A DNA stretch of 64,000 bases from assembly GCF_000184345.1 (NCBI RefSeq), contig NC_017583.1, positions 2,232,001-2,296,000 of the forward strand. Direction: 5' to 3'. Numbering within the stretch: position 1 is the first letter of the stretch; each line of letters begins with the position of its first letter. Below are positions 37,527 through 47,376 of the stretch, in pieces. The DNA comes from Spirochaeta thermophila DSM 6578. Its GTDB lineage: Bacteria; Spirochaetota; Spirochaetia; Winmispirales; Winmispiraceae. The notes beneath the pieces were generated by a model. It did no database searches and had not been told where the DNA came from. It was given only the letters and a program-made list of their open reading frames with translations. The translations under genes were made by a program, and so were the position numbers.

Positions 37527-38869
37527 GGCACTGTCAAGGGGGAGTGTTGAAATTGAGCTGGAGTTGATAAGGGGTGCATCTCCCCACCTCTTGTATCACC
37601 TGCATGCCCACCACGTAGAGGCCTACCACCTCATCTGCATGGGCACGGCTCATATACCCAGGATACCTCCGCAGAAAGCTCCTCATGTGACGAAACATGT
37701 TCTCCGCAAGGTTGCTCGTCCTCACCTTCTCCTTCCACTCATAGGGTAACTCCAGATAGGAGAAGAGCCGCTCCTTCCGCCACAGGAGAGCAGCCGTCAT
37801 CCGGGGGGCCTTCGTCGCCCACTTCTTCACGAATGCCTCGAACGCTTCCTCTGCCTCCTCCTTCCCTCCTGCCTCAAAGAGCCTCCAGTACTCAGTCCGA
37901 AAGGCTCGCCTCTCCTCCTGGAGGTGAGCCTTCTTCCCCTTCTGGTCCCCCATATCCTGCAGAAGCTTCTGCTCAAGGGTGCATTGCAGGTGCCAGAGGC
38001 ATACCTGCTTCTTCGCCTCAGGATACACGGTCTCCACCGCCTGCCAGATCCCCTCTGCCTCATCGGCCACCACCAGCTCCACCTCCTCAAGCCCTCGCTC
38101 ATAGAGTTTGGTAAGGAGTCGCTCGTAGCTCGCCCGGTCCTCCTGCTCCGCAACCACCCAGTCGAGGAGCTCATGAGACCCGTCCTCCTTCACTCCCACG
38201 GCACTCAGGATCACCAGCCCCCTCCTCCCTTTTCCCCTCAGCTTTCCCCACACCCCATCCAGCACGAGCGCCTTCACCCCTCTAATGGGCCGCCTCCGCC
38301 ACCGCTCTTTCTCCTCGCGAAGACGCTTTATGAGCCTAAGGAGTGTCTGCGGGTGAGCCTCTCCTATCCCCAGCTCCCGTAACAGAATGGCCCACGTCCG
38401 CGCGCTCATCCCTCTCACATACCCAAGGAGGAGCTGCTCAGCGAGGGCCACGAGCCTCTGCTCGTAGGTCACCAGCTTTACCTCCTTCCCCCCGCCGGTG
38501 CGAATACGGGCACGCGTACCTCCTCGATCGGCCCCCAGGGGGTCTGCACGCTCTTCCACTTTCTGTAGCCGTACCGGTAGTACGGTGCCTTCTCAGCCTC
38601 CCCTCGTGCATATCGTGGTCGTCCCACTGCCTCCTCTCTCAGCGTCTCAAGGAGGTGCTCCAGGTACGTCTTGTAGGTGTGGCGCACCTCCTCCCGGAGT
38701 TGGGCCTCCACTTGCTTCATCAGATCAGAGAGGGTATACTGTGTATCAATCAGTGTGCGTGTGTTACCACGCTTCATGGGGTATCTCCTCCTTCTTTCAG
38801 AGGTTTGGTGGTGGGAGATACCCCTTATCTTTTTTCCCCGCCTTTTTCAACACTCGATGTTACAGTCCC
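37527..38869 (-). mobile_element. IS256-family insertion sequence, copy 2 (1343 bp, inactivated)
   Basis: Nearly identical to copy 1 over its whole length, with the same terminal inverted repeats. The differences I can see are one G to A change and one missing G near 38509, and one T to C change near 38823. It is inserted in a lipoprotein gene with a perfect 8-bp duplication. The near-identity points to recent movement. Confidence 0.95.
37534..38777 (-). pseudogene. frameshifted IS256-family transposase
   Basis: Same gene as the copy 1 transposase, but a one-base deletion at about 38506-38511 shifts the frame after codon ~90. The N-terminal piece (38478-38777) stops after 99 residues; the remaining ~320 residues, including the whole DDE triad, lie in another frame with no proper start. 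Copy 1 is intact at the same place, so this is mutation rather than programmed frameshifting. Confidence 0.93.
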
Positions 38870-42410: not shown

Positions 42411-42439
42411 TTGCACTTTTCTCTAAGGAAATATATAAT
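42411..42439 (+). promoter_or_regulatory. promoter of the PplA-like lipoprotein gene
   Basis: TTGCAC (42411-42416), 17-nt spacer, TATAAT (42434-42439). A strong sigma70-type match just after the proB stop, followed by GAGGAGG before the ATG at 42469. Confidence 0.82.
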
Positions 42440-42468
42440 AAATTATCATAATATCACGAGGAGGCTAT

Positions 42469-43320
42469 ATGCGAAAGGCCATTATCTCCATGCTCGTCAT
42501 ACTCATGGGCGTGTTCCTCATCCTCTCCGGTTGCGCAAAGAAGGAAGAAGCCGCAGCCAGTACATGGAAGGACGGGGTGTACTTCGCCCAGCTTCCCGAC
42601 TTCGACCCCGAGACCGGCTGGAAGGACGTGGTGATCCTCGAGGTGAAGGACGGGAAGATCGCCTCCGTGGTCTGGAACGCCGTGCATCGAGACGCGGGTC
42701 CCGACAAGATCACACGCTCCATGAACGGACAGTATCCCATGGTGGAGCGTGGCGGTGCCAAGGTTCCCTGGCACGAGCAGGCACAGAAGGCGGTGGCGTA
42801 TCTCCTCGAGACCCAGGATCCCACCAAGATCACCTACAAGGACGATGAGGGCCACACCGACGCCATCTCGGGTGTCTCCATCCACGTGAAGGAGCTCTTC
42901 GAGCTCGCGAAGGAGGCCCTGGAGCGCGGCCCCGTCGGCTACGGCCCCTACAAGGACGGCACCTATCATGCCGAACAGGCCGACTTCAGCCCCCAGGGAT
43001 GGAAGGAGTTCGTGGACATCACGGTGCTGGGCGGAAGGATCGTGGCCGTGCGATGGGATGCGCTCCACAAGGACGGCGGCGATCCCAAGGACACTCGCTC
43101 CCGCAACGGCGAGTACGGCATGTATGAGAACGGTGGGGCACAGGCCCCCTGGTGGCAGCAGGCCGAGGCGGTGGAGAAGTACCTCATGCAGACCCAGGAT
43201 CCCACCAAGATCACCTACAAGGACGACGAGGGCCACACCGATGCCATCTCGGGGGTCTCGATACACGTGAACTCCTTCTTCCAGCTCGCCCAGGAGGCGC
43301 TCAAGGACGCCCGAAGGTAG
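42469..43320 (+). CDS. FMN-binding-domain lipoprotein, tandem repeat (PplA-like)
   Basis: 283 residues. Signal peptide with lipobox LSGC (Cys22), then two homologous FMN-binding-type domains (~32-150 and ~160-280). Each ends in TDAISGVS (Asp131-Ser137; Asp258-Ser264), matching the D-x-x-S/T-G-x-S/T flavinylation signal that ApbE enzymes modify, with Ser where Thr is usual. The DNA of the two motif regions is almost identical over more than 40 bases, so the duplication is recent or kept alike. In Listeria, PplA is a two-domain flavinylated lipoprotein that passes electrons outward; the neighbours here fit that role. No apbE-type gene is in the window. Confidence 0.82.
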   Translation: MRKAIISMLVILMGVFLILSGCAKKEEAAASTWKDGVYFAQLPDFDPETGWKDVVILEVKDGKIASVVWNAVHRDAGPDKITRSMNGQYPMVERGGAKVPWHEQAQKAVAYLLETQDPTKITYKDDEGHTDAISGVSIHVKELFELAKEALERGPVGYGPYKDGTYHAEQADFSPQGWKEFVDITVLGGRIVAVRWDALHKDGGDPKDTRSRNGEYGMYENGGAQAPWWQQAEAVEKYLMQTQDPTKITYKDDEGHTDAISGVSIHVNSFFQLAQEALKDARR

Positions 43321-43337
43321 ACCCTTCGCCACACTAC

Positions 43338-43368
43338 AAGGCCTCCCCAGACAGGGAGGCCTTTTCTT
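43338..43368 (+). terminator. rho-independent terminator after the PplA-like gene
   Basis: AAGGCCTCCC (43338-43347), 6-nt loop, GGGAGGCCTT (43354-43363), then TTCTTC. The downstream prenyltransferase is therefore at least partly separate in transcription. Confidence 0.88.
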
Positions 43369-43410
43369 CATACCCTTCTTCCTGCTATCGTTCGCACCAA
43401 GGAGGATCGC

Positions 43411-44346
43411 GTGATCACACCCTATCAGTTCGCCCGCATCGTGGAAATCCGTACGAAGCTGGTAAGTGTCTCCTCGTTCGCCATAGGTACGCTCTACGCC
43501 ATCGCCATGGTGGGGGAATGGGAGCCCGTACGCCTCCTGGTCATGTTCCTCGCCGTGTTCGCGGTGGATATGGGCACCACGGCCTTCAACACCTTCTTCG
43601 ACTACTGGAAGGGCGTCGATCGGAAAGAACTCAACCGGGAAGAGGACAAGGTGCTCGTCCATCAGAACGTACCGCCCGGATATGCCCTCATCATAGCCGT
43701 GGGTCTTTTCCTCATCGCCGGGATTTTGGGTCTCGTCCTCGCGTTTCTCGTGGGCAAGGCATTTGGATTCACCTCTGCCCTCGGGCTTCTCGGTACAGGA
43801 GCCCTCTGCATGGCGGTGGGTTTCTTCTATAACGGGGGGCCGAGGCCCCTCTCCTTCACCCCCTTCGGGGAGCTCTTCGCAGGCGGGTTCCTGGGAGGCG
43901 TGCTGGTGCTCCTTTCCATCTTCGTGCAGACAGGCCGCATCACCCCCCAGGCACTCCTCCTCGCCGTCCCCTCCACCCTCCTCGTGGCCTCCATCCTCAC
44001 CGTGAACAACACCTGCGACATGGAAGGAGACCGCGTGGCAGGGCGCCTCACCCTCTCGATCCTGCTGGGCCACCACGCCAGCCGCATCCTCGTCTACGCG
44101 CAGGGCATCCTGGGCTACCTCATCCTCGCGCTCTGCGGCCTCCTCGACATCCTCCCCCGCCTCACCCTCCCCACCGCCGCCCTCGGCCTCACCCACGCCC
44201 TTCTCACCTACCGCCGCATGCACCGGCGGGGCTACGCGCACGCCACCAAGGGCCCCTCCATGCAGGACATCCTCTCGATCTTTCTCGTCTTCACCCTCGC
44301 CGCCGTCGTCCCCCTCGCCCTCCGTCTCTTCCTCCCCGTCCCCTGA
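43411..44346 (+). CDS. UbiA-family prenyltransferase (DmkA/MenA-like)
   Basis: 311 residues, about 9 membrane helices. The two Asp-rich motifs of UbiA proteins are present: NTFFDYWKGVDRKELNREED and NNTCDMEGDRVAGR. Attaches a polyprenyl chain to an aromatic acceptor, most likely 1,4-dihydroxy-2-naphthoate to give demethylmenaquinone. AAGGAGG lies 5 nt before the GTG start. It is convergent with, and 6 bases from, the polyprenyl synthase that could supply its co-substrate. Confidence 0.87.
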   Translation: MITPYQFARIVEIRTKLVSVSSFAIGTLYAIAMVGEWEPVRLLVMFLAVFAVDMGTTAFNTFFDYWKGVDRKELNREEDKVLVHQNVPPGYALIIAVGLFLIAGILGLVLAFLVGKAFGFTSALGLLGTGALCMAVGFFYNGGPRPLSFTPFGELFAGGFLGGVLVLLSIFVQTGRITPQALLLAVPSTLLVASILTVNNTCDMEGDRVAGRLTLSILLGHHASRILVYAQGILGYLILALCGLLDILPRLTLPTAALGLTHALLTYRRMHRRGYAHATKGPSMQDILSIFLVFTLAAVVPLALRLFLPVP

Positions 44347-44352
44347 CACCCC

Positions 44353-45336
44353 CTACACCCTTCGCACCACCAGCTCCGCCAGCACCCCCTCCAGCACCTC
44401 CCGCCACCTCCCCTCCGGCAGTCCCGCCGCCTCCCGCATGGCCCGGTCGGTGAATCCCTGTGCCATCCCCCTCGCCTCCTGCACCGCCCCCGAGTCCACG
44501 AGCAGTCTCCGCACCTTTCCCGCCCACACGCGGCCGGCCATCCCTCCCGCACACGCCCGTCTCATCCAGACCCCCAGGCGGTCCCCCTCCTTCCGCGCGA
44601 GCATCACCGCCGGCGCCCCCACCACCCCCTGCTCCACATCCCGCCCCACCGGCTTCCCCAACCCCCTTCCCGCCACGTCGAGCACATCGTCGATCACCTG
44701 GAACGCCATCCCCACGTTGTAGCCGATACGCCTGAGCCGACGCACCACCTCCTCCTCCGCCCCGGCCTCCGACGCCCCCAGGTGGAACGCCACCACGAAC
44801 AGGAGCCCCGTCTTCCTCAGGATACGCCGCAGATACCGCCGCAGGCTGAAGGACTCCCTCCCCAACGCCCGACGCACCTCCACCTCCTCTATCTCGCCGT
44901 CGAGGATGTGCCGTACCCCGCGGGAGAGGAACACCGCGTGCTCCCTGCTCGCGTACTCGGCCACCAGTTCGAGGGCCTTCGCGAACAACAGATCCCCCAT
45001 GAGCACCGCCTCCTTCACCCCGTACGCCCGATGCAAGGCCGCCCCACCCCGTCTCGTCGCCGCATCGTCCACGATATCGTCGTGGACCAGCGTCGCCATG
45101 TGGAGCATCTCGAGGGCCGCGGCGAGCCGCACCACCCTCTCGGGGATCTCACCCTCGCCCACGCCGAACCGCGCCGAGAGGACCATACATCCCGGCCGCA
45201 GGAGCTTCGCATCCCGCGAGGCGAGGTCCACGAGCGCAGAAGAAAGCTCCCCCGAAGGGGAGCCGAGCTCCTCACGGATGAGATCCCTCACCCGCACCAC
45301 GTCGGGCGCTATGGAAGGAAACTTCTCCCAGAACAT
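44353..45336 (-). CDS. polyprenyl diphosphate synthase (DmkB/IspB-like)
   Basis: 327 residues. First Asp-rich motif HDDIVDD near residue 85, second IDDVLDV near 210, as in trans long-chain prenyl synthases. Makes the isoprenoid side chain of quinones by adding isopentenyl diphosphate. The ATG at 45336 shares one base with the stop of ndh2 (TGATG), so the two are translationally coupled; a longer frame into ndh2 is not needed. Strongly G-biased coding strand. Confidence 0.88.
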   Translation of the reverse strand: MFWEKFPSIAPDVVRVRDLIREELGSPSGELSSALVDLASRDAKLLRPGCMVLSARFGVGEGEIPERVVRLAAALEMLHMATLVHDDIVDDAATRRGGAALHRAYGVKEAVLMGDLLFAKALELVAEYASREHAVFLSRGVRHILDGEIEEVEVRRALGRESFSLRRYLRRILRKTGLLFVVAFHLGASEAGAEEEVVRRLRRIGYNVGMAFQVIDDVLDVAGRGLGKPVGRDVEQGVVGAPAVMLARKEGDRLGVWMRRACAGGMAGRVWAGKVRRLLVDSGAVQEARGMAQGFTDRAMREAAGLPEGRWREVLEGVLAELVVRRV

Positions 45337-47306
45337 CAGGGACGAGGCTCTCCGCTGTAGAAATAGGTCCTCTTGGCGAGACCGAACCCGTTCCAGCGGT
45401 CCCTGACCCAGGGCATCACGTAGTGATCCAGGCCGAAGCCACGACCCGCACCACCCATCATCACCACCGCCGCTGCGATGTACCACAACAGCTCGGGGGA
45501 ACCCCACCCGGAGATGATGAACATCACCGCAAGACCGATCGTCGCCACCGCAGCCGGGAATACGAAGAGCCCTCCGACGAAGGCGAGCCCTATCAAGATC
45601 TCCGCGAGCACCACCCCTGCCTGCGCCAGGAAGGCGAGCGCAGGCACGGCCGAGAGCACGTGCTCGGCGAACCAGGTGTAGATCCCCAAAGCCGGCATGA
45701 GCGCCTCGCCGTAGCCGCCACCCGCTGCAGCCTCCGTCGCCGCGCTCGCCGCAGTGGCCGCATCCGCTGCCGCCTGGGCCGAGGCCGCGCTCACCGCATC
45801 ACCCAGCACCACACCGGGAAGGTGGATCGCCGAAGGATCGGGGTTGAAGACCCCACCCGCGCCGGGATTGAGCCACCCCTCCAGCACCTTCTTGATCCCC
45901 TCCACGAGCCACTTCGCCCCCAGGAAAAGCCGCAAGGGGAGGGCCCAGTACACAGGGATCCGCCACGCGAGGTGATCGTGCACGATCGAACGCCTGTCCT
46001 TGATGTGGAGGAACTCCTCCTTGAGGTACTTCCACACCGCATTGAACCCTGCGAGTCCCCACAGGTAGTGGAGGTTCACCATGTGCTTGAGGGCCATGGC
46101 GGGAACCCCGGACATCTGCACCCCCATCACGTGGGCCACCGCGTACTTGCTCCCCACCGACACCATGAACCCGTGGTAGTTGCTCCGGAAGGGCTTTTTC
46201 TCCTTGCCCTCTATATCGGCGATGATGTTGTGCGCCGCAGTCTCGGCGGTCTGGAGCGCCGTCTCCACCACCTGGGGGAGGACCTTCTTCCCCTCCACGT
46301 ACCAGGTGATATCGCCCACCACGTAGACATCGGGGTGATCGTGGGCCTGCATCTGATCGTTCACCAGGAACCGGCCCCGCACCCCCACCATATCCCGGTC
46401 CTCCTCGTCGATGTAGCAGGCCGCCATGCCGTGGATCCCGTCCGACGTCACCACCGAGCACTGCCCCCTGGCCGCCTGTCCCATGGTGAGCGGCACCCGA
46501 GCACTCAGCTCACCGCCGTGCACCCCGGCGGTCCAGATGAAGGTCTCGGTCTCTATGGTCTTCTCGCCTATGAGCACCTCCCTCTTGCGCGCGCCGGTGA
46601 TGGGCGAGCTCGTGAGGATCTCCGCCCCCATCCGTTCGAGCCTCCGGTGCGCCTTCCGGGCGAGACGCTCGGTGAAGTTCGGGAGGATCCGCGGGAGGGC
46701 CTCCACCATGACGACCCTCACCTCATCCTTCGGAATGTGGTACTTCCTGCAGAGCACCTTCCTGTGTTCGAGCAGCTCGCCTGCGAGCTCGACCCCGGTG
46801 AACCCACCCCCTGCGATCACAAAGGTGAGGTAGCGCCGCCTCTTCCGGGGATCCTGAGTCTTCGAGGCCTCGTCGAAGCAGTTCTCCACGTGCCTCCGCA
46901 GCCTCACCGCATCGTCCCAGCTCCAGAGGGTGAAACAGTTCTCCTGCACACCCGGTATGTTGAAGAACTCCGGCGCCCCGCCAGCCGCCATCACCAGGTA
47001 GGTGTAGGGGTAGCGTCCCTCCTCCCCTATCACCACCTTCTCCTCCACGTCCACGGTCTCCACCCTGTCGGTGACCCAACGCACCTTCCTCCCCCCGAAG
47101 ATCACGTGGAAACTCACCCTCGTGGCATCGGGCACCACCCGCCCGCCTGCCACCTCGTGGAGGTCGGTCATGAGCGTGTGGTAGGGATTCTTATCGATGA
47201 GCAGGATCTCCACATCCTCCCGCTTCCTGAACCGCTTCTCCAGGATCTTGGCCGCATGCACACCGGCATACCCGCCGCCTATGATGACAATTCGCCTCGT
47301 CTCCAT
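45336..47306 (-). CDS. ndh2: type II NADH dehydrogenase with C-terminal membrane domain (Ndh2-like)
   Basis: 656 residues. Residues 1-~420 are a two-dinucleotide-fold NADH:quinone oxidoreductase (FAD site IVIIGGGYAGVHAA, NADH site FVIAGGGFTGVELAGE, and YVVGDITWY). The last ~200 residues hold an amphipathic region (LRLFLGAKWLVEGIKKVL), an Ala-rich linker and several membrane helices like DoxX proteins. Ordinary NDH-2 enzymes of ~400 residues lack this tail, whereas Ndh2 of the Listeria extracellular electron transfer locus has one. It would pass electrons from NADH to the demethylmenaquinone made by its neighbours. GGAGGAG precedes the ATG. Confidence 0.88.
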   Translation of the reverse strand: METRRIVIIGGGYAGVHAAKILEKRFRKREDVEILLIDKNPYHTLMTDLHEVAGGRVVPDATRVSFHVIFGGRKVRWVTDRVETVDVEEKVVIGEEGRYPYTYLVMAAGGAPEFFNIPGVQENCFTLWSWDDAVRLRRHVENCFDEASKTQDPRKRRRYLTFVIAGGGFTGVELAGELLEHRKVLCRKYHIPKDEVRVVMVEALPRILPNFTERLARKAHRRLERMGAEILTSSPITGARKREVLIGEKTIETETFIWTAGVHGGELSARVPLTMGQAARGQCSVVTSDGIHGMAACYIDEEDRDMVGVRGRFLVNDQMQAHDHPDVYVVGDITWYVEGKKVLPQVVETALQTAETAAHNIIADIEGKEKKPFRSNYHGFMVSVGSKYAVAHVMGVQMSGVPAMALKHMVNLHYLWGLAGFNAVWKYLKEEFLHIKDRRSIVHDHLAWRIPVYWALPLRLFLGAKWLVEGIKKVLEGWLNPGAGGVFNPDPSAIHLPGVVLGDAVSAASAQAAADAATAASAATEAAAGGGYGEALMPALGIYTWFAEHVLSAVPALAFLAQAGVVLAEILIGLAFVGGLFVFPAAVATIGLAVMFIISGWGSPELLWYIAAAVVMMGGAGRGFGLDHYVMPWVRDRWNGFGLAKRTYFYSGEPRP

Positions 47307-47347
47307 TCGAACTCCTCCGGGGAATATACGGATGAAACTATATCCAG

Positions 47348-47376
47348 AGACTACTCCACGTCGGGGCCTTTGTCAA
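47348..47376 (-). promoter_or_regulatory. promoter of the ndh2-polyprenyl synthase operon
   Basis: TTGACA (47371-47376), 17-nt spacer, TAGTCT (47348-47353) on the - strand, about 40 bases before the ndh2 ATG. Confidence 0.72.

Follow-up and report, generated by a model that had tools for sequence, protein, structure and literature searches.

A probable FLEET-type electron export system, spread over the genome of Spirochaeta thermophila, with a proposed flavin site on Ndh2

Known FLEET systems and the spirochaete gene set

The closest described counterpart of the genes discussed here is the flavin-based extracellular electron transfer (FLEET) system of Listeria monocytogenes, a single locus encoding a type II NADH dehydrogenase (NDH-2) with a DoxX-like tail (Ndh2), a DmkB-type enzyme, a PplA-type lipoprotein, ApbE (FmnB), EetA and EetB, the last being the flavin adenine dinucleotide (FAD)-binding subunit of the exporter that feeds ApbE (PMC9973259). 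A fermenter, Lactiplantibacillus plantarum, runs FLEET on imported 1,4-dihydroxy-2-naphthoate (DHNA) and keeps DmkA/DmkB, Ndh2, PplA and EetA/EetB (PMC9888254). Homologues of all these Listeria components are encoded by the spirochaete Spirochaeta thermophila DSM 6578, whose genome is one contig of 2,560,222 bp (NC_017583.1). We analyzed a stretch of 64,000 nucleotides of it (positions 2,232,001 to 2,296,000; hereafter the window), in which a cluster of four such genes occupies positions 42411–47376.

The likeness has its limits. Whereas the Listeria genes form one locus, those of the spirochaete are scattered over the genome; its PplA is only ∼21–25% identical to that of Listeria (E 5e-9), no DHNA synthesis was found, an FmnA can be guessed from gene position only, and the host, unlike Listeria, has an outer membrane to pass. 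L. plantarum too is a monoderm, and our comparison with it draws on gene set and published genetics rather than on its Ndh2 sequence. Spirochaete representatives of an ApbE/Ndh2/prenyltransferase/lipoprotein module were mentioned in one sentence by Vasieva and Goryanin in 2019 (PMC7074142), a mention that in the text available to us comes without phylogeny, whole-genome gene content or tail analysis. A 2024 account of Ca. Effluviviacota, which it presents as a Gram-negative occurrence, called its own case the first outside the Gram-positives (PMC11323493); there, Nuo stands in place of Ndh2.

From gene content, homology, co-occurrence and phylogeny, we conclude that the cluster and the dispersed genes very probably constitute FLEET. 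The genome encodes a tailed Ndh2 of the FLEET clade, DmkA and DmkB, ApbE/FmnB, and EetA (NusG_II) with EetB (PF07456), and it does not show the tailless NDH-2 and the quinone pathway that would mark an ordinary respiratory NDH-2/menaquinone chain. For comparison we used the characterized Listeria locus, taken from a record typed as a plasmid, with its Ndh2, ApbE, DmkB, EetB, EetA, PplA and FmnA. Ndh2 is 39% identical to its Listeria counterpart over 648 aa, tail included; the corresponding values are 41% for ApbE, 34% for DmkB, 29% for EetB and 28% over 60 aa for EetA. The catalytic part of Ndh2 fits solved NDH-2 enzymes, with matches to PDB structures down to 6e-60, and the closest named relatives of Ndh2 are spirochaetes.

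A tree of 86 NDH-2 catalytic domains (tail columns excluded, short search, no bootstraps) splits 64 tailed enzymes, 35 from spirochaetes and 29 from Firmicutes, from 22 ordinary ones by one branch (Shimodaira–Hasegawa-like approximate likelihood ratio support 94), which amounts to a single change for the tail. The ordinary enzymes include those of Bacillaceae and of other Spirochaetota; the spirochaete NADH dehydrogenase groups with the Firmicutes FLEET enzymes and apart from ordinary respiratory NDH-2. Since the spirochaete tailed enzymes nest together, with some clostridial ones among them, the tree suggests an old transfer of tailed Ndh2 between phyla. Gene neighborhoods are in accordance with this clade: DmkB adjoins Ndh2 in all 35 Spirochaetota loci inspected, several of which carry EetA-EetB-ApbE-Ndh2-DmkB in one run, with or without PplA, and among named genomes many Firmicutes loci with tailed Ndh2 hold canonical FLEET sets, while none of these genes was found at any of 12 loci with a short NDH-2.

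The lipoprotein of the cluster matches Pfam FMN_bind at 26.1 bits (cut-off 22) and structure 2kzx at 159 bits, and consists of two FMN_bind-type repeats, each closed by the sequence DAISGVS. Its match to the NCBIfam PplA model (E 1.5e-12) reaches 47 bits against a curated cut-off of 325, and we therefore regard it as a relative of Listeria PplA and not as that equivalog. In loci of Paenibacillus and other Firmicutes, the immediate neighbor of tailed Ndh2 is a PplA-like protein with ∼40–55% identity.

The membrane tail of Ndh2 and its outer loop

Beyond the NDH-2 domain, the C-terminus of Ndh2 carries ∼200 extra membrane residues, which from profile matches we newly recognize as DoxX/DoxD-like. 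When 15 tails were scanned singly, Pfam DoxX was matched by 14 and DoxD by 10, though weakly (best E 1e-5), and the tail from the window falls below threshold when scanned alone (13.6 bits to the DoxD domain of thiosulfate:quinone oxidoreductase, E 0.05). In contrast to DoxX/DoxD proteins, such as the membrane subunit of that oxidoreductase, the Ndh2 tail is fused to an NDH-2 and has a long, motif-bearing loop between its first two helices. AlphaFold models, one of the complete protein and one of the tail (mean predicted local distance difference test score 83 each), place the tail helices at residues 455–475, 555–578, 582–598 and 605–623 and show a basic C-terminus. Helices 1 and 2 are joined by a long loop, disordered in its residues 503–532. 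Given a cytosolic catalytic domain, the topology predicted from the models and the basic C-terminus puts this loop on the outer side of the membrane. A Foldseek search with the tail model returned no significant solved relative; VKOR, a candidate at VIA-align Z 5.4, was not used, as that value is below the chance level for helical bundles. Elsewhere in Ndh2, residues 278–309 (window 46380–46475) form a low-confidence insert with two cysteines (approximately QCS...GIHGMAAC..DEE), which a subset of the spirochaete enzymes has and the rest lack.

The loop bears sequences resembling the target of ApbE, D-x-x-[S/T]-G-A-[S/T], whose final Ser/Thr receives flavin mononucleotide (FMN) from that enzyme (PMC12052999). 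In the Ndh2 of the window they read DAVSAAS and DAATAAS, with A where the target has G. We surveyed the loops of 66 tailed Ndh2 enzymes, 35 from spirochaetes and 31 from Firmicutes, counting sequences that are related by descent rather than independent events, some of them with internal repeats. The pattern [DE]xx[ST][GAS]A[ST] occurs in 44 loops, compared with ∼1 in shuffled sequences and 2.3 (maximum 9) under a first-order Markov null, and in 1 of the 66 catalytic domains. Among 36 anagram and spacing patterns with the same residue classes, the ApbE order ranks first, with [DE]xx[ST][GA]A[ST] in 40 loops and the runner-up in 14, and three positions ahead of the core stands D or E in about three-quarters of cases against a background of 10%. 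Firmicutes loops are enriched in the strict core [ST]GA[ST], which 10 of 31 contain against a mean of 0.6 after shuffling. The Listeria loop reads AATSGAS, and that of Enterococcus raffinosus QVTTGAS and EATTAAT. At about three of eight inspected loci with both genes, ApbE and Ndh2 are neighbors and no further protein with a strict motif is encoded close by, a hint, and suggestive only, that Ndh2 is the substrate.

These patterns, together with published genetics, lead us to propose, tentatively and at a likelihood we judge just short of even, that FLEET Ndh2 is itself flavinylated, holding FAD in the cytosol and one or more ApbE-attached FMN groups on a flexible outer loop; the modification would hold from Listeria to the spirochaetes. 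Such an enzyme could carry NADH electrons across the membrane in one polypeptide, without PplA or a free quinone pool, perhaps assisted by a quinone in the DoxX-like bundle. Iron reduction that depends on riboflavin requires ndh2 and eetA/B in L. plantarum and not pplA, dmkA or dmkB, for which the authors invoked an unknown oxidoreductase or route (PMC9888254). If EetA/B is needed there for FAD export to flavinylation, the substrate left without PplA could be Ndh2. RnfD and NqrB, the flavinylated membrane subunits of Rnf and Nqr, offer a parallel as membrane proteins with an ApbE motif on the outer face. The site proposed for Ndh2 differs from theirs in being part of a loop, disordered and often repeated, within a DoxX-like domain. 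Sequence comparison suggests a flavin site on the outer face of Ndh2 as a step not described before.

Cluster layout, quinone supply and dispersed genes

The original prediction had placed a two-domain FMN-binding lipoprotein, a UbiA prenyltransferase, a polyprenyl diphosphate synthase and an NADH dehydrogenase with a membrane tail side by side, and all four are indeed in place and intact (Table 1); the lipoprotein gene starts at 42469 rather than at 42411. The lipoprotein gene, with its own hairpin, and dmkA run forward towards the convergent operon of dmkB and ndh2, a layout from which it follows that the cluster is not one operon. In the DmkB open reading frame (44353–45507, reverse strand), homology does not begin before residue 58/59, and translation probably starts from the ATG at 45336. 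This start overlaps the ndh2 stop as TGATG, and for that reason dmkB and ndh2 are probably translationally coupled. About 4 kb from the cluster, at window positions 37534–38777, a Mutator-type transposase is spread over two reading frames and probably frameshifted.

Table 1. Features of the cluster, in window coordinates
Feature	Position	Strand	Basis or remark
PplA-like two-domain FMN_bind lipoprotein, 283 aa, lipobox LSGC	42469..43320	+	profile, structure-sequence and motif searches
Flavinylation-like motif 1 of the lipoprotein, DAISGVS, residues 131–137, V for the usual A	42859..42879	+	
Flavinylation-like motif 2 of the lipoprotein, DAISGVS, residues 258–264	43240..43260	+	
Terminator-like hairpin 3′ of the lipoprotein gene	43338..43363	+	consensus match only
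DmkA-like UbiA prenyltransferase	43411..44346	+	profile searches
DmkB-like polyprenyl diphosphate synthase	44353..45336	-	reading frame open to 45507; start placed by homology and by the overlap TGATG
FLEET-type Ndh2, 656 aa, cytosolic NDH-2 catalytic domain and membrane tail	45336..47306	-	
DoxX/DoxD-like four-helix membrane tail of Ndh2, residues 455–638	45393..45944	-	
Flavinylation-like motif DAVSAAS, long loop between tail helices 1 and 2 of Ndh2, residues 503–509	45780..45800	-	
Second flavinylation-like motif DAATAAS, same loop of the Ndh2 tail, residues 515–521	45744..45764	-	

The DmkA of the cluster has 1,4-dihydroxy-2-naphthoate polyprenyltransferases as its best NCBIfam models and is the only UbiA-family gene of the genome, which encodes two polyprenyl synthases, one of them in the cluster. 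The organism thus seems to have one route to a prenylated quinone, sited beside Ndh2 and PplA. Of 45 Spirochaetota genomes sampled for having tailed Ndh2, 44 carry a UbiA-family gene, compared with 1 of 15 genomes without it that were hand-picked from several families rather than drawn at random (Fisher p 1.3e-11). That one is the only sampled spirochaete with a UbiA-family enzyme and yet no tailed Ndh2 match.

The genome contains no MenD (best profile match 79 bits; cut-off 244) and no MqnC (36 bits; cut-off 428). Its sole MqnA/D-family match was rejected as a futalosine gene, being an ABC-type binding lipoprotein. In most sampled genomes, the MenD matches fall below the cut-off and come from long thiamine-diphosphate enzymes that resemble acetolactate synthase in length and score; two genomes have stronger matches, still sub-threshold. 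Because MenD and MqnC are absent, the naphthoate ring precursor is probably imported or scavenged, and the demethylmenaquinone pool suggested by the original prediction would then come from a scavenged precursor.

That prediction had also noted EetA, EetB and ApbE as missing from the window, which is correct, and all three are encoded elsewhere in the genome. ApbE (profile match 307 bits) lies at 2.487 Mb, adjoined on the opposite strand by a NusG_II (EetA) gene, and EetB lies at 0.764 Mb, directly followed by a gene for a 229-aa membrane protein. The latter is FmnA-like by position only: a like protein recurs beside EetB in relatives, and it gave no Pfam match and no BLAST match to Listeria FmnA. 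The FLEET-like character first proposed is therefore upheld by ApbE, EetA, EetB and the Ndh2 clade, and not by the DHNA pathway.

The genome also carries two separate Rnf gene sets, at ∼1.00 and ∼0.364 Mb, with the RnfD flavinylation motifs DALTGAT and DALTSAT and RnfG proteins of the FMN_bind type. Since both Rnf complexes need ApbE too, its presence alone is not diagnostic of FLEET. A genome-wide FMN_bind search found, beyond the cluster, two Rnf subunits and one small lipoprotein, and no FMN_bind-fused reductase. A third FMN_bind lipoprotein, at ∼0.544 Mb, has the strict motif DAVSGAT, and its gene follows those for FtsX/MacB-like permeases, an ABC ATPase and a Cys-rich membrane protein, an arrangement resembling iron-assimilation flavinylation clusters (PMC8238504). 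A CcsA-type cytochrome c assembly gene stands beside genes for a cytochrome P460-like lipoprotein and a HAMP/nucleotide-cyclase sensor with CxxCH. This locus could possibly be a haem-based sensor in an anaerobe, and c-type haem is possible in the organism; nothing ties the locus to the FLEET cluster.

Electron path, alternatives and meaning

On the path we infer, Ndh2 would oxidize NADH in the cytosol, and a naphthoate precursor, probably imported, would be turned by DmkB and DmkA into the only prenylated quinone of the cell. Through the FAD exporter EetB and ApbE, proteins at the outer face of the cytoplasmic membrane would receive FMN; the PplA-like lipoprotein is one candidate target and, as proposed here, Ndh2 itself is another, with the long outer loop in the DoxX-like tail as its site. 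Electrons would exit Ndh2 via quinone and/or tethered flavin to PplA or to free flavins and quinones. For their passage through the outer membrane to an acceptor outside the cell, the simplest guess would be a shuttle of diffusible flavin or quinone. As a whole, we consider it likely that the spirochaete has a FLEET-type export system encoded in at least three places of its genome, the Ndh2 flavin site being marked as proposed.

Several observations weigh against this picture. No DHNA pathway was found in a search for MenD, MqnC and MqnA/D that did not include MenB, although this is not fatal to FLEET, since Lactiplantibacillus uses imported DHNA (PMC9888254). Of 392 genomes sampled across the phylum, 225 have EetB, many of them without tailed Ndh2, and in these FAD export probably serves other flavinylated systems; for that reason EetA, EetB and ApbE could serve the two Rnf complexes instead. 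The lipoprotein is distant from Listeria PplA, and both of its motifs have V for A, a change that left ∼50% of flavinylation in one Klebsiella pneumoniae model protein (PMC12052999). The same change is found in the Paenibacillus PplA-like relatives adjoining tailed Ndh2, which makes it a trait of this PplA subfamily and not decay in one genome. Turning to the Ndh2 loop, the strict core is at chance level in spirochaetes (3 of 35; shuffle mean 2.0), whose motifs mostly have A for G, a change that likewise left about half of flavinylation in the K. pneumoniae protein (PMC12052999). In addition, 22 of the 66 loops lack the fuller motif, and the loop, Ala/Ser-rich and predicted to be disordered, may be a linker. 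In the literature we found, there is neither a report of flavin on Ndh2 nor published electron-transfer physiology for Spirochaeta thermophila.

These points bear on how much of the path is real. It could be that the system is FLEET proper with flavin only on the PplA-like lipoprotein, electrons passing from Ndh2 to quinone to PplA and the Ndh2 loop being an Ala/Ser-rich spacer, which we hold to be a serious possibility, if somewhat short of an even chance. The low complexity and disorder of the loop and the A for G in its spirochaete motifs fit this; the co-occurrence of UbiA with Ndh2 shows that quinone matters, and the flavinylated Listeria proteins named in the literature we found are PplA and fumarate reductase. 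The Listeria loop, for its part, lies within a 60-residue hydrophobic tryptic peptide, which standard proteomics could easily miss. A mere spacer would leave unexplained why the order of the motif and the acidic residue three before its core are conserved far beyond composition, why nearly a third of the Firmicutes loops, Listeria and Enterococcus included, have the strict core, and why L. plantarum reduces iron independently of quinone and PplA.

The far end of the path invites a different doubt, namely that the system ends in the periplasm, with NADH electrons passed to an acceptor that is periplasmic or diffusible, be it a flavin, a scavenged naphthoquinone, a disulfide or a metal, and no true extracellular respiration. 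Spirochaetes are diderm, any NADH sink benefits a fermenter, the FMN_bind search gave no fused reductase beyond the locus, and no outer-membrane conduit was identified, though multihaem cytochromes and porins were not searched for. Homologous Gram-positive loci, however, support iron and anode reduction, and spirochaete lipoproteins can be surface exposed; we regard a periplasmic endpoint as possible but doubtful. It is very improbable that NDH-2 and quinone synthesis here make up an ordinary respiratory module based on menaquinone, with an unrelated lipoprotein next to it. Each enzyme class is also found in ordinary respiration, but the tree already disfavors this explanation by placing Ndh2 in the tailed clade, apart from the NDH-2 of Bacillaceae and other Spirochaetota; the genome lacks MenD and MqnC, and the lipoprotein has its relatives beside tailed Ndh2 in Paenibacillus and other Firmicutes.

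The route of electrons from Ndh2 to the outside is an open step of Gram-positive FLEET, and the Ndh2 flavin site, if true, would fill it, as a flavinylated Ndh2 would supply the missing step of the published quinone-independent route. If electrons do get out of spirochaete cells, there must be some step that takes them through the outer membrane. FLEET is spread over much of the class Spirochaetia, in bacteria apparently unable to make the quinone precursor, and for this reason a large diderm group may depend on the quinones of its neighbours.

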